This document shows positions 2,877 through 61,838 of a DNA stretch of 64,000 nucleotides, in pieces. Both the position numbers and the translations under genes were made by a program. Within the stretch, counting starts at the first letter, position 1. Each line of letters begins with the position of its first letter. Below the pieces are notes generated by a model. It did no database searches and was not told the DNA's origin. It saw only the letters and a list, made by a program, of their open reading frames with translations. The stretch comes from Curtobacterium sp. 458 (lineage in GTDB: Bacteria > Actinomycetota > Actinomycetes > Actinomycetales > Microbacteriaceae): positions 3,300,687-3,364,686 of the forward strand of contig NZ_CP129104.1 in assembly GCF_030406605.1 (NCBI RefSeq). Reading direction: 5' to 3'.

Positions 2877-3089
2877 CCCCGCGAAAGCGACAGAAGCGCG
2901 CTGCCGGCCGCCGTCCGCTCCGCGAGAGCGACAGATGTGCGCCACCGCTCCGCGCAGAACTGTCGCTTTCGCGACCACCCGACGCGACCGCACCGCGGAG
3001 GCGACAGGAGCGCGCGGCGCGCCGCCGGGTACCCCGCGAAAGCGACAGAACCCCGCGACGGGGTCGCGGGGTTCTGTCGCTTTCGCGGG
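2877..3089. repeat. Cluster of GCGAAAGCGACAGAA-type repeats
   Basis: This fills most of the 317-base convergent gap between the kinase and aroG. The motif GCGAAAGCGACAGAA or close variants occurs near 2881, 2921 (GCGAGAGCGACAGA), 3000 (GGCGACAGGAG) and 3036 on the plus strand, and inverted near 2956 and 3070. The last pair forms a perfect hairpin. The same AAAGCGACA core is the stem of the hairpin at 44141. No gene is seen here. Confidence 0.8.
3033..3089. terminator. 27-bp perfect hairpin between convergent genes
   Basis: Arms 3033-3059 and 3063-3089 are perfectly complementary around a 3-base GGG loop. It lies between the 3' ends of the kinase (+) and aroG (-), so it could terminate in both directions. 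It has no T tract, as is common in this lineage. It is also the newest-looking member of the surrounding repeat cluster. Confidence 0.65.
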
Positions 3090-8454: not shown

Positions 8455-8474
8455 CGGGACGCGACAGCACTGAC

Positions 8475-8535
8475 GCAACCGCCGGGAGGCCCGGTGCCGG
8501 TCCCTGGGACCGGCACCGGGCCTCCCGGCGGTTGC
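8475..8535. terminator. 30-bp perfect hairpin after the acyl-CoA synthetase gene
   Basis: Arms 8475-8504 and 8506-8535 are perfectly complementary around a single central base. It lies 20 bases after the synthetase stop and 33 bases from the end of the small minus-strand ORF, so it can serve both. It contains the GGGAGGC...GCCTCCC core shared with the hairpins at 16213, 39292 and 61795. Confidence 0.8.
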
Positions 8536-8568
8536 GGTGTGCGCGGGGCGCGACGCGCCCTCCTGCGC

Positions 8569-12786: not shown

Positions 12787-13599
12787 GTGCATGTACTCAG
12801 CGTGAGCTCCCTCAAGGGTGGTGTCGGCAAGACGACGGTGACGCTCGGCCTGACCTCGGCCGCGTTCGCCAAGGGACTGCGCACGCTGGTGGTGGACCTC
12901 GACCCGCAGTCCGACGTCTCGACGGGCCTCGACATCAACCTCGCCGGGCACCTCAACGTGGCCGACGTGCTCGAGAACCCGAAGGAGAAGATCGTCCGCC
13001 AGGCGATCGCCCCGTCCGGGTGGACGAAGGGCTCCCAGGGCAAGATCGACGTCATGGTCGGATCGCCCTCGGCCATCAACTTCGACGGGCCGCACCCGTC
13101 GATCCGCGACATCTGGAAGCTCGAAGAGGCCCTCGCGAACGTCGAGCAGGACTACGAGCTCGTCCTCATCGACTGCGCCCCGTCACTGAACGCCCTCACC
13201 CGCACGGCGTGGGCCGCGTCCGACCGCGTCACCGTCGTCACCGAGCCCGGGCTCTTCTCCGTCGCGGCTGCCGACCGTGCCCTCCGCGCGATCGAGGAGA
13301 TCCGCCGCGGTCTCTCGCCGCGCCTCCAGCCGCTCGGCATCATCGTGAACCGTGCCCGCGTGCAGTCGCTCGAGCACCAGTTCCGCATCAAGGAGCTCCG
13401 CGACATGTTCGGGCCGCTCGTACTGTCGCCGCAGCTGCCGGAGCGCACGTCGCTGCAGCAGGCGCAGGGTGCGGCGAAGCCGTTGCACGTGTGGCCCGGC
13501 GAGTCCGCGCAGGAGATGGCGAAGAACTTCGACCAGCTGCTCGAGCGCATCATGCGCACGGGCAAGATCGGCCCCTACGCCGAGGGCGGCGCCGCGTAG
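12787..13599 (+). CDS. Orphan ParA-family ATPase
   Basis: P-loop ATPase of the MinD/ParA class, 270 residues. It begins VHVLSVSSLKGGVGKTT, with the deviant Walker A KGGVGKT, followed by LVVDLDPQSDVSTGLD (Walker A') and LVLIDCAPSLNALT (Walker B). No parB or parS-like partner is adjacent. ParA proteins without ParB often position other cargo such as signalling or wall complexes, so chromosome partitioning should not be assumed. The preceding TTG at 12778 overlaps the likely -10, so GTG 12787 was chosen. The gene is divergent from pyc and followed by a large repeat region. Confidence 0.82.
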   Translation: MHVLSVSSLKGGVGKTTVTLGLTSAAFAKGLRTLVVDLDPQSDVSTGLDINLAGHLNVADVLENPKEKIVRQAIAPSGWTKGSQGKIDVMVGSPSAINFDGPHPSIRDIWKLEEALANVEQDYELVLIDCAPSLNALTRTAWAASDRVTVVTEPGLFSVAAADRALRAIEEIRRGLSPRLQPLGIIVNRARVQSLEHQFRIKELRDMFGPLVLSPQLPERTSLQQAQGAAKPLHVWPGESAQEMAKNFDQLLERIMRTGKIGPYAEGGAA

Positions 13600-14142
13600 C
13601 GTCCGCTCCGGTCCGCGCGGGCGGGCGGGCGGGCTATTGCGCGGGCGTTTGGCGGGCACAGGCGTTCGGCGGGCGCTTGGTCGCACGACGTGCCGCTCAC
13701 GTTCGCGTTGGTCGCAGATCGTGTCGCCTCGGAGCACCGGCAGCGACGGCTTCTGCGACCGCAGTGATCAGCACGCGGCACGTCGTGCGACCAACCGGAT
13801 CGTCGTCGGCCCCGCTGGCCTGCCGCTTGTGCCTCGGCCAGCGCCGAGCGGGGTCGCCGGACGTGCCGCTCACGTTCCCATTGGTCGCAGAACGAGTCGG
13901 CCCGACGCCCCGGCCGTTGGTCGCAAGACGTGCCGCTCACGTCCGTGCTGGTCGCACGAAGTGTCGGGTCGGCGTCGAGGGAGCGACACGTTCTGCGACC
14001 ATGACGAACGGCACGCGGCATGTCGTGCGACCAACGTCAGACACGACGACGACGCGCGGACGACGCTGGGCGCGGCTACGACGACGCGCGGCGCATCAGG
14101 CGACTGCCACGTCGGGGCGCCGACTGGCCGAGGGACGACGGG
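13600..14142. repeat. Intergenic region with two 118-bp palindromic elements
   Basis: The 543-base gap between parA and merR holds no gene. GGCGGGC-type short repeats follow the parA stop (13616-13680). Two 118-bp elements at 13677-13794 and 13917-14034 have 19-base outer arms (TTGGTCGCACGACGTGCCG and its complement; perfect in the first, two mismatches in the second) and internal copies of GGTCGCAGA / TCTGCGACC. A half element sits at about 13859-13906. The motif GACGTGCCGCTCACGTTC occurs at 13687, 13860 and 13927, and in altered form at 20619. Confidence 0.85.
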
Positions 14143-14703
14143 TCAGGACGCGCGGGAGGCCCGACGGGCAGCGAGCTCGTCGTCAGGATCGGCAGCGGGG
14201 GCGGCGTCGAGCTCCACGAGCGACGACTCGACCTCACGCAGGACCTTGCCCACGGCGATGCCGAACACGCCCTGGCCGCGCGAAACCAGGTCGATGACCT
14301 CGTCGTCGGAGGTGCAGAGGTAGACCGAGGCGCCGTCGGACATCAGCGTGGTCTGGGCGAGGTCGGACACGCCCGACTCCCGCAACTGGTTCACCGCGGT
14401 GCGGATCTGCTGCAGCGAGATGCCCGTGTCGAGCAGACGCTTCACGAGCTTGAGCACGAGGATGTCGCGGAAGCCGTAGAGCCGCTGCGAGCCGGAGCCG
14501 GCAGCACCGCGGATGGTGGGCTGCACGAGTTCGGTGCGGGCCCAGTAGTCGAGCTGCCGGTAGGAGATGCCGGCTGCCCGGGCGGCGACGGTGCCGCGGT
14601 AGCCGTTCTGTTCGTCGTGCTCCGGCATGCCGTCGGTGAAGAGCAGCCCGAGGTCGTACCGCGTCATGTCCGACCCGGTACCGGGGGTGTCAGTCCCACT
14701 CAT
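14143..14703 (-). CDS. MerR-family regulator (second MerR of the garA region)
   Basis: Transcription factor of 186 residues from ATG 14703, preceded by GGAAGG. The N-terminal winged helix includes AAGISYRQLDYWARTELV and the turn RLYGFRDILVLKLVKRLLDTGISLQQIRTA, typical of MerR-type DNA binding. The C-terminal part carries LCTSDDEVIDLVSRGQGVFGI, a block known in the Rv1830-type proteins encoded near garA in mycobacteria. No metal-binding Cys is seen. The upstream 190-base gap contains TCAA-N7-TTGA at 14744-14758, a possible MerR operator; autoregulation is inference. An upstream GTG is possible but lacks a ribosome-binding site as good. Confidence 0.85.
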   Translation of the reverse strand: MSGTDTPGTGSDMTRYDLGLLFTDGMPEHDEQNGYRGTVAARAAGISYRQLDYWARTELVQPTIRGAAGSGSQRLYGFRDILVLKLVKRLLDTGISLQQIRTAVNQLRESGVSDLAQTTLMSDGASVYLCTSDDEVIDLVSRGQGVFGIAVGKVLREVESSLVELDAAPAADPDDELAARRASRAS

Positions 14704-14893
14704 GCGCTTGCCTTCCACGACGATCGAGCCCTCACCCGAAGCTTCAATGCCGGGTTGAGAGTTGTTCCGAGGTCCACGGTAGCGACTCCGAGCCGTCGCG
14801 CGCGGGACATCCGCTCCGGCGCGTCCGGCGTGTCGAGGATACGCCCCGCCCTCCGACACCCGCCAGCGACGCGAGAGTCCTGCAGCGCGAGCC

Positions 14894-24619: not shown

Positions 24620-24624
24620 GCGCC

Positions 24625-24795
24625 GCCGAGCACCGCCCGCACCACCGACCGGAACACGTCGGCGCGAGTGACGGTGTCGTCCGCCTACGCGCCGAGCACC
24701 GCCCGCACCACCGACCGGAACACGTTGGCGCGAGTGACGGTGTCGTCCGCCTACGCGCCGAGCACCGCCCGCACCACCGACCGGAACACGTTGGC
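24625..24795. repeat. 66-bp tandem repeat at the 3' end of the next gene
   Basis: Three copies start at 24625, 24691 and 24757, each beginning GCCGAGCACCGCCCGCACC; the third (about 39 bases) is the coding 3' end of the 24751-25905 gene. The period equals 22 codons and each unit carries the antisense stop triplet CTA. Copy 1 abuts the HtrA stop and has one extra triplet before it. Only one or two bases differ between copies, so the duplication is recent. Confidence 0.9.
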
Positions 24796-33405: not shown

Positions 33406-33479
33406 CGGTCCACCTTCCCACACACGGCTGTCCGTGTGACCGCCGTGGGTCACGGAGCGTCGTGTACGGTGACGATCGA

Positions 33480-33556
33480 GACGCGGGGTGCCGCGACCGC
33501 GGCTGAGATCACACCCGTCGAACCTGCTCGAGCTCGTACTCGCGAAGGGATCGTCC
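33480..33556 (+). ncRNA. TPP (thi-box) riboswitch
   Basis: The conserved blocks are present in order: CGGGGTGCC, GGCTGAGATCACACCC, GTCGAACCTG, and GCGAAGGGAT just before thiM. GGGTG pairs with CACCC. The terminal GAAGGGA doubles as the ribosome-binding site 6 bases before ATG 33557, so thiamine diphosphate binding should block translation. A possible -10, TACGGT, lies at 33465. Confidence 0.95.
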
Positions 33557-34450
33557 ATGCGCACTGCTGCGCCCGTACCCACCACCGCTGCGCCGGACCT
33601 CGTGCTCCGGTGCGCCGACCTGCTCGAGGCCGTCCGTGCCCGGGCCCCGCTCGTCCAGTGCGTCACGAACACCGTGGTGCAGAACGTGACGGCGAACGTG
33701 CTCCTCGCGGTCGGGGCCTCCCCCGCCATGGTCGACGTACGCACCGAGGCCGGTCCGTTCGCCCGGGTCGCCGACGCGCTGCTCGTGAACACCGGCACAC
33801 CGCACGAGGAGACCCGTGACGCCGCCGTCGAGGCGGCGACCGCGGCCGTCGACGCCGGGACGCCGTGGGTGCTCGACCCCGTGGCGGTCGGGGCGCTCCC
33901 CGTCCGGACCGCGCTCGCGCACGAGCTGCTGGCCCTGCGGCCGACCGTTCTGCGGGGCAACGCCTCGGAGGTGCTCGCCCTGCTCGACGGCGCGGCCGGA
34001 GGCCGAGGGACCGACGCGACGGCCACCACGGACGACGCGAGGGCCGCTGCGAGCGCATCGGCCGGGAGGCGCGTGGGCGCCGTGGCGGTGTCCGGTCCGG
34101 TCGACCTGGTGGTCGCCCCGGACGGGACCGTCGTGCGGGTCGCGAACGGGACGGACCTGCTGACCCGGATCACCGGCGGCGGGTGCGCGCTCGGTGCGGT
34201 GGTCGCCGCGTTCGCGTCGGTCACCGCCGACCCCGGCGACGCCGCCGTGGCCGCGACCGTGGCGTACACGGTGGCGGCCGAGCTGGCCGCCCGGGACGCC
34301 GGTGGTCCGGGGACGTTCCAGCCGCTGTTCCTCGACCGGCTCGCGTCCCTCACACCGGAGGACCTCGTGGAACGCTCCCGCGTGTCCACCGAGGACGGCA
34401 CGGGCACGGCGGACTCCACCCCTGCCGTGCCGACTCGGAGCGAGCGGTGA
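33557..34450 (+). CDS. thiM: Hydroxyethylthiazole kinase
   Basis: Phosphorylates the thiazole alcohol so that it can be joined to the pyrimidine (thiamine salvage). The 297-residue ribokinase-like protein has [59 protein letters not shown] and the late [14 protein letters not shown] with the catalytic Cys/Gly loop. ATG 33557 lies directly after the TPP riboswitch. It overlaps thiE by GTGA. Confidence 0.94.
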
Positions 34451-39291: not shown

Positions 39292-39339
39292 GACGGACGG
39301 GAGGCTCGGTGCCGGCTGGCACCGAGCCTCCCGTCCGTC
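39292..39339. terminator. 22-bp perfect terminator hairpin
   Basis: Arms 39292-39313 and 39318-39339 (GACGGACGGGAGGCTCGGTGC and complement) pair perfectly around GGCT. It sits between convergent genes (stops 39278 and 39360). Clearest member of the GGGAGGC/GCCTCCC family. Confidence 0.85.
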
Positions 39340-44140: not shown

Positions 44141-44197
44141 ACCACGAAAGCGACATCGAACCGGGCCCGAGACCTGGTTCGATGTCGCTTTCGTGGT
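44141..44197. terminator. 22-bp perfect hairpin with AAAGCGACA core
   Basis: Arms 44141-44162 (ACCACGAAAGCGACATCGAA and two more bases) and 44176-44197 pair perfectly around a 13-base loop. It lies between the convergent MFS and NmrA-like genes. The AAAGCGACA core is shared with the repeats at 2877-3089. Confidence 0.75.
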
Positions 44198-51683: not shown

Positions 51684-52072
51684 CGCGGGGAGGGGCCGCG
51701 GGCCGGGGGTTCACGAAACGCGCGCGTCCCGACGAACCACGTGTCGATCGACGCGTGGTTCGTCGGAGCATGCGCCCGCATCGGGTTCCGCGCCGCGAGT
51801 ACGACGGTGCACGTGTCGATCGACGCGTGCAACGTCGCACTCGTGCGTGCGCTCACGCCGCAGACCGCACGCCGCACGCCGCTGTCGGGCGACACGACCG
51901 ATGTCGTACGACCACGTCGCTCCCCCGCGCGCACAACCGTTGCACGCGCAAACAGCGACGCGGCCGATGTCGTCCGACACCGGCCGCGCCCTTCCGCAGC
52001 GACACCCGAAGTCACACGCGGAACCGGCCGGGAGCGAGCGCTGACGCCGCACCCCGGCCGAGCTTCAGCCCC
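51684..52072. repeat. Intergenic palindromic repeats with CACGTGTCGATCGACGCGTG
   Basis: No gene is seen in this 389-base convergent gap. The 20-base motif CACGTGTCGATCGACGCGTG occurs exactly at 51738-51757 and 51810-51829. Each copy is the centre of a hairpin: 51729-51766 (13-bp perfect arms CCGACGAACCACG) and about 51802-51836 (12-bp arms, one mismatch). CCGATGTCGTACGAC (51898) and CCGATGTCGTCCGAC (51963) form a second repeated pair. Confidence 0.85.
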
Positions 52073-61794: not shown

Positions 61795-61838
61795 CGGACG
61801 GGAGGCACGGGTCGGGCCCGCACCGCGCCTCCCGTCCG
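61795..61838. terminator. Terminator hairpin with CGGACGGGAGGC arms
   Basis: Arms 61795-61806 and 61827-61838 are perfectly complementary, with GC-rich inner pairing. It follows the first surface-protein gene by 14 bases and belongs to the shared GGGAGGC family. Confidence 0.75.

Follow-up and report, generated by a model that had tools for sequence, protein, structure and literature searches.

RAYT transposases, which are of the Y1 (HUH) kind, have been proposed as the enzymes that mobilise REP-type repeats. Iterons and parS-type arrays consist of direct repeats of a site of ~17-19 bp at helical spacing, and MITEs are short, dispersed sequences with inverted ends. The REPINs of Pseudomonas fluorescens are described in parts of PMC3116915 as doublets of inverted motifs with a less conserved spacer of constant length, which are extragenic and in some cases clustered. 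Passages of PMC6379681 report that BIME-2 of E. coli contains gyrase cleavage sites, and passages of PMC3733652 describe the REPs tagged by GTAG or CGTC as short intergenic palindromes, which the sequences analysed here resemble in this respect. The main text of PMC3733652 makes no mention of actinobacteri-, Microbacter-, Clavibacter, Leifsonia, Kocuria or GTCGC. In the RepRanger paper three other Actinomycetota are named, and the strings Curtobacter- and Microbacter- are absent from that text. The literature searched, mostly without subscription papers, yielded nothing on the present repeats in Curtobacterium or Microbacterium.

The parA-merR gap and its palindromic elements

The window, i.e., the whole 64,000-nucleotide stretch that was analysed, corresponds to positions 3300687-3364686 of the Curtobacterium sp. 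458 genome, which was searched as a single contig of 3,679,616 bp. Positions 13600-14142 of the window form a gap between the convergent parA and merR genes, within which lie two palindromic elements of 118 bp each and a copy of the left half of such an element. The gene of the ParA-family ATPase (12787-13599, plus strand; start uncertain, at TTG 12778, GTG 12787 or GTG 12802) has its 3′ end at the gap edge, and the gene of the MerR-family regulator occupies positions 14143-14718 of the minus strand, its start also being uncertain. Each element, as delineated by sequence comparison, folding and unit matches, is a palindrome of four units, two on the plus strand followed by two on the minus strand, with start-to-start distances of 31, 34 and 32 bp. 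Element 1 (13677-13794) comprises, by unit match, the left outer unit TGGTCGCACGACGTGCCGC (13678-13696, plus), the left inner unit (13709-13727, plus), the right inner unit (13743-13761, minus, with 3 mismatches to the pattern) and the right outer unit (13775-13793, minus). The corresponding unit matches in element 2 (13917-14034) are at 13918-13936 and 13949-13967 on the plus strand and at 13983-14001 and 14015-14033 on the minus strand. Between them lies the half-element (13851-13900, plus), with plus-strand units at 13851-13869 and 13882-13900, 31 bp apart, and without a right half. Elements 1 and 2 are spaced at 240 bp and 77% identical over 124 nt, with outer arms that are 96% and 91% complementary, and the motif TGGTCGCA occurs nine times in the window against 2.95 expected, eight of the nine copies being inside the gap. 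The paired palindromes with common outer arms and the half copy between them, as reported in the first-pass annotation, are thereby confirmed.

The same annotation had stated that no gene overlaps the elements and that no transposase is nearby. Gene calls, which throughout this work come from a home-made codon model, place no gene across the gap, although open reading frames of a purely mechanical list do cross it, and no transposase was present among the six neighbouring genes scanned. The proposed capacity for a long hairpin is borne out by folding: the predicted folds of both elements on either strand lie 6.25 to 7.96 SD below dinucleotide shuffles, with none of 200 shuffles folding as well in any of the four folds, and the stretch around the half-copy folds poorly (z +1.1).

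Unit architecture and dispersal

The repeated unit is ~17 bp long and follows the pattern GGTCGCA-N5-TGNCG, the best copies in the parA-merR gap being TGGTCGCANNANGTGNCGC. Many copies of the element have three units instead of four. A short form of the unit, GGTCA-N5-TGNCG, which is 2 bp shorter, builds a like architecture in other species. Spacings were surveyed in 89 Curtobacterium gaps that were picked by their flanking genes, the search leaving the spacing free. Of 43 neighbouring convergent pairs of 17-bp units, 30 have a distance of 34 bp and six one of 35 bp, and for the 15-bp form the distance is 32 bp in 18 of 32 cases and 64 bp in ten; the main spacings of 34 and 32 bp both correspond to an inner gap of 17 nt. 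For neighbours on the same strand the distance is 31 or 32 bp, with 43 of 60 cases in the long form and 25 of 28 in the short form. As a consequence, a unit that differs by 2 bp in length still keeps the period of approximately three helical turns.

With at most three mismatches at 31 or 32 bp, genome G001 has both outer units in 28 of 32 elements, and genome G018 has one outer unit in 40 of 45 elements and both in four, compared with 12/1216 (G001) and 4/1710 (G018) at other offsets. Among the matches listed, a third unit with at most two mismatches stands beside 34 of 35 Curtobacterium pairs, 19 of 72 Microbacterium pairs and none of three Herbiconiux pairs. Since 53 of the 72 Microbacterium pairs and all three Herbiconiux pairs are without a third unit, it is only for Curtobacterium that the phasing of three units is well established.

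In the 14 dispersed elements of the strain 458 genome, the units are kept while the spacers are nearly random. Pairwise identity is 0.73/0.72 for the inner units, a value lowered by one misanchored element (3276), and 0.50 for the third unit, whereas the spacers reach 0.37/0.42 against 0.33 in shuffled sequences and the flanks remain at the shuffled level. An extension, TCACGTTC, is common to some copies in this genome, and some G018 copies, as judged by eye, have spacer letters in common, so that the spacers are not wholly free and common descent shows in part. The combination of rigid spacing and near-free spacers would fit the protein-binding array that the first-pass annotation had suggested as one possibility.

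A BLAST search of the strain 458 genome with the element gives 22 matches at E<=0.001, five in the parA-merR gap and 17 elsewhere, and 75 unit matches with at most two mismatches are found against 27 for a reversed control. These copies rule out a local duplication only, as which the first-pass annotation would have read a unit without copies elsewhere. Paired units form 14 clusters with like spacings, 13 of which are outside the parA-merR gap. The inner pair is detected with at most three mismatches in 23 of 36 Curtobacterium genomes and in one of 23 others of the order, in 0 to 37 copies per genome; as the reversed control gives one match in each of four genomes, four of the 23 positive Curtobacterium genomes and the sole outsider, with a single match each, are at control level. 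At one mismatch the inner pair is found in six of 299 Microbacteriaceae genomes, i.e., four of seven Curtobacterium, two of five Microbacterium and none of the 287 others; the second genus is identified as Microbacterium because the element of G318 is identical to one in a named Microbacterium record. None of 282 genomes in a class-wide sample outside Microbacteriaceae matches, and in the genomes sampled outside this family nothing above control level was seen. An exact scan of named genomes reveals at least 120 loci, with 79 in Microbacterium, 38 in Curtobacterium and three in a Herbiconiux MAG among the matches listed. No match to the element was found in plasmids, phages or viral contigs, and no relatives of parA were found in viral contigs.

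The short form is present in 18 of 40 genomes, with no match of its reversed control. In searches that used different mismatch limits for the two forms, nine of 36 genomes combine at least eight long-form pairs with an absence of the short form, another seven have at least eight short-form pairs and at most four of the long form, and in four, including strain 458 (21 long, 5 short), both forms reach five pairs or more; the remaining 16 have few pairs or none of either form. Essentially one unit form is present in 16 of the 20 genomes rich in copies.

Genomic position and orthologous gaps

All 14 clusters of the strain 458 genome are intergenic, with nine in convergent, five in tandem and none in divergent gaps (p=0.009 for divergent), a count that leaves out two stretches with single or unpaired units (L044 and L045). 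In named genomes 121 of 123 clusters are intergenic among those listed. For the 104 listed clusters with both neighbours visible (19 of the 123 are without one neighbour) the gaps are convergent in 47 cases, including L162, which overlaps a predicted gene, tandem in 54 and divergent in three. For comparison, all 420 gaps of the named loci comprise 88 convergent, 215 tandem and 117 divergent gaps; against this background divergent gaps are depleted (p=2e-11) and convergent gaps enriched (p=3e-8). In tandem gaps 46 of 54 clusters are closer to the upstream stop codon, at a median of 49 bp. A position behind genes is also expected if copies in promoters get lost, and therefore does not decide between spreading and a host function. 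Along the chromosome, the 14 clusters avoid the span of 0.62-2.46 Mb, which holds parS matches near 1.03 Mb; a chromosome-positional role was dropped, the listed G018 copies running from 0.30 to 3.37 Mb.

Several other features of the window were recorded in passing. A second palindromic family with the core GAAAGCGACAG / CTGTCGCTTTC occurs at 2880-3086 and 44141-44197, again in convergent gaps; this core has seven matches with at most one mismatch against 0.68 expected, and forms inverted pairs 36 bp apart. Inverted pairs with GGGAGGC[N]CGG are located behind genes at 39292-39339, 61795-61838 and 8474-8536 and probably represent a terminator-like hairpin of the genus, although the motif alone is only mildly enriched, with 44 occurrences in the window where 30 would be expected. 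A convergent gap at 51684-52072 contains two hairpins with CACGTGTCGATCGACGCGTG in common, and a tandem repeat of a 66-bp unit (24624-24795; 2.6 copies, 99% matches) lies in and just past a convergent gap. In addition, a TPP riboswitch at 33474-33568 scores 61.4 bits, which exceeds the gathering score.

Orthologous gaps were compared in the best 30 of 39 (parA) or 40 (trmD, mraZ) genomes, those nearest to strain 458 by protein match. An element is present in 22 of 29 parA-merR gaps (the G009 locus being left out), in 11 of 30 DUF3040-mraZ gaps and in three of 30 trmD-map gaps, with three stretches each of the trmD and mraZ sets not bounded by the second gene; shuffled gaps are positive in 0, 0.1 and 0 cases on average, respectively. 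A terminator-like hairpin, GGAGGC...GCCTCC, is found in 25 of the 30 trmD-map gaps, nearly all of them without an element, and the shortest of these gaps (57-59 bp) consist of little beyond this hairpin. As judged by eye, the element is on the map side of the hairpin in strain 458 and on the trmD side in G022, which makes it evident that the element is not that hairpin, and the hairpin is disturbed in G004. These observations suggest that the trmD-map elements are separate gains. In the mraZ gap two copies of either unit form are found at similar places in several species, which indicates that other copies are old. The DUF3040-mraZ and parA-merR arrays look largely old and inherited, so that a large part of the pattern can be accounted for without recent movement.

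Other palindromes were also noted by eye in these gaps. The trmD-map gaps of G027, G008, G014 and G017 (L224, L228, L236 and L246) contain other nested palindromes, with cores such as GCGACACTCCTCG, CGAGTCTCGG and GCGACAG; several repeat families may share gaps such as trmD-map, where strain 458 has the GGTCGCA element. The parA-merR gap of G003 (L080) extends over 1354 bp, with about seven tandem copies of a composite palindrome of the short form, the number being an estimate by eye.

Candidate explanations and their significance

In the explanation that we prefer, by a little more than an even chance, the parA-merR site is one of a dispersed REPIN/BIME-like family in Microbacteriaceae that is read unit by unit by a putative trans-acting protein. 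Such a protein would recognise the units individually, on DNA that is either double-stranded or extruded, and the same-strand spacing of 31-32 bp, together with the 17-nt inner gap, would set several protein molecules on one helical face. Binding might then spread the elements, as proposed for RAYT with REPINs, or might serve a use behind genes, for example in connection with transcription-driven supercoiling, as BIME-2 may do with gyrase. We infer that the elements are mobile, and lean towards a spreading element that is tolerated mainly behind genes. No reader or mobilising protein was found, which counts against this explanation, as do the lack of target-site duplications and of a clean empty site in the comparisons made and the largely inherited look of the mraZ and parA arrays. 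Among the ideas of the first-pass annotation, a REP-like mobile palindrome agrees best with the results: the elements are dispersed, intergenic, found in many genomes and present or absent at one orthologous site. No REP transposase appeared where it was sought.

By analogy, the family may work like REPINs and BIMEs, from which it differs in its phased multi-unit architecture. Like REPINs, the elements have two conserved inverted motifs at a fixed distance, a variable spacer of constant length and an extragenic dispersal, but each of them contains three or four units, and those on one strand follow each other at 31/32 bp. With BIMEs, and BIME-2 in particular, they have in common the composite intergenic arrays of palindromic units; the unit itself differs from that of E. 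coli as judged by eye, and the phased direct repeats are a further difference. With tens of copies at most (0-37 pairs per genome) the family is less abundant than REPs, for which parts of PMC2817692 give >100 copies as typical. The REP-type GT[AG]G tetranucleotide at the hairpin foot is not conserved in the aligned copies inspected by eye; the letters before the unit vary by lineage (TT or CT in strain 458, CCGA in G018 and mostly C in Microbacterium), and some G001 copies read GTGG where T precedes GGTC, at a position that varies. Iterons and parS-type arrays likewise consist of direct repeats of a site of comparable length at helical spacing, but the present elements occupy many dispersed loci and have an inverted inner pair, and no link to a replicon or to ParB was found. 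MITEs are similarly short and dispersed with inverted ends; here, however, no target-site duplication and, among the top 25 neighbour families, no parent transposon was seen.

A host-useful DNA element that is not mobile, such as a BIME-2-like array for a nucleoid protein or topoisomerase that is kept by selection at each site, is unlikely. It would account for the retention of units while spacers drift to near-random sequence, for the phased spacing, for the 3′ position with its convergent excess and for the persistence in mraZ and parA gaps across species. However, the variation from 0 to 37 copies per species, the absence from most genera sampled, the differing unit forms and the presence in only three of 30 trmD-map gaps are unlike a conserved host system.

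Similarly unlikely is the proposal that these are ordinary REPs or REPINs which owe their movement to a RAYT-type Y1 (HUH) transposase, one that the genome has since lost, that only other strains carry or that has diverged beyond the reach of the Pfam model. Inverted pairs of units whose spacers are constant in length and less conserved have the REPIN look described in parts of PMC3116915, and the family is dispersed and intergenic with several subtypes. Yet the Y1_Tnp profile (PF01797) has no match in the complete strain 458 genome and one match among 199 Microbacteriaceae, in G073, which is without the inner pair at one mismatch, compared with five positives among 14 control genomes. The sample of 199 includes four of the six genomes with a pair at one mismatch (G000, G093, G167 and G168), and the highest-copy genomes G001, G014 and G018 are outside it, which leaves this proposal some room. 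PF01797, according to passages of PMC6006769, covers most TnpAREP subfamilies only in part; in the sample of that study, as far as the same passages go, subclass 1.1, the IS200 type, is the only one present in the Actinobacteridae, which argues against a RAYT. Unlike in REPIN systems, no RAYT was found in the strain 458 genome or in three other element-bearing genomes, and since none was found in the former the family is not filed as a member of the REP class. Among 84 comparisons of 36 elements in two genomes no target-site duplication exceeds z 2.5, and no clean empty site was found. The 25 most recurrent neighbour protein families are, by eye, transporters, regulators and enzymes, not transposases; the largest, with 23 members in 13 genomes, adjoins an element in seven, and two four-genome families adjoin an element in four of four, probably at orthologous sites.

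Bidirectional transcription terminators, or RNA hairpins that stabilise mRNA 3′ ends, are considerably less probable. The very stable predicted folds, the 3′ position and the convergent excess are what such structures would show, and selection on a hairpin should leave the variable sites of one arm matched to those of the other inside each element. No such covariation was seen in the inner arms of the elements among the matches listed: pairing is 164 against 191.5±9.7 in shuffled Curtobacterium elements and 391 against 400±10.9 in Microbacterium, and in both sets the within-genome shuffles included random strand flips, which raise the expectation where the arms differ. In a test without flips, for which element orientation is well set in G018 and ambiguous in G001, the values are 250 against 248.5 expected and 248 against 248.4, respectively. 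The outer arms show no pairing excess in G018 and in G001 a weak one at two of three spacings (reached by 91 and 103 of 2000 shuffles), with a deficit at the third; for the spacer halves of G001, 1963 and 1999 of 2000 shuffles gave higher pairing, a low value that the ambiguous orientation may have produced as an artefact. The weak outer-arm excess leaves some room for a folded form of the element. Compensatory arm changes are common in the REPINs described in parts of PMC3116915, and the absence of inner-arm covariation here thus also distinguishes the elements from REPINs and speaks against the RAYT proposal. Orientation relative to transcription is not biased either, with the third unit of three-unit elements in tandem gaps upstream in 14 cases and downstream in ten, the 32 pairs without a third unit being left out. 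Moreover, the conserved unit in three-unit copies is without its own partner, and in the one gap examined for it, trmD-map, a separate terminator-like hairpin is far more frequent than the element. The idea of a structured non-coding RNA, raised in the first-pass annotation, is weakened by the same lack of inner-arm covariation and orientation bias and by the Rfam search of the parA-merR gap, in which nothing matches at the gathering score and the best hit, RF04104, reaches 26.5 bits, its gathering score being 268. Taken together, the missing inner-arm covariation, the missing orientation bias and the separate trmD-map hairpin favour recognition of each unit on DNA by a protein.

A parS-like centromere of the adjacent orphan ParA, about which the first-pass annotation had speculated on account of its position, is most improbable in spite of the arrays in 22 of 29 Curtobacterium parA-merR gaps, as 13 of the 14 strain 458 clusters are elsewhere, the other seven gaps are without an array though parA is present in 39 of 40 genomes, and a GTTTCACGTGAAAC-type site with at most one mismatch occurs only at 1.029 and 1.031 Mb, a long way from the position of the gap at 3.314 Mb.

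Returning to a family read by a trans-acting protein, a REPIN-like family for which no RAYT turned up in the genomes checked implies that such repeats spread or are kept by some other route. In the survey sample of PMC6006769, as given in parts of that paper, the Actinobacteridae have only the IS200 type of the Y1 superfamily, which makes a REPIN-like family there notable. A wider and clearly more tentative proposal is that RAYT-free replicating repeats of Actinobacteria are phased multi-site elements, and that the specificity of the spreading protein shifts by lineage, as the 17- and 15-bp forms with mostly one per genome might reflect, so that the repeats in orthologous gaps would differ by clade. 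The strict spacing and the near-free spacers provide a precise bait for a candidate reader protein, and the existence of two unit forms on one period makes the co-evolution of repeat and reader directly testable.
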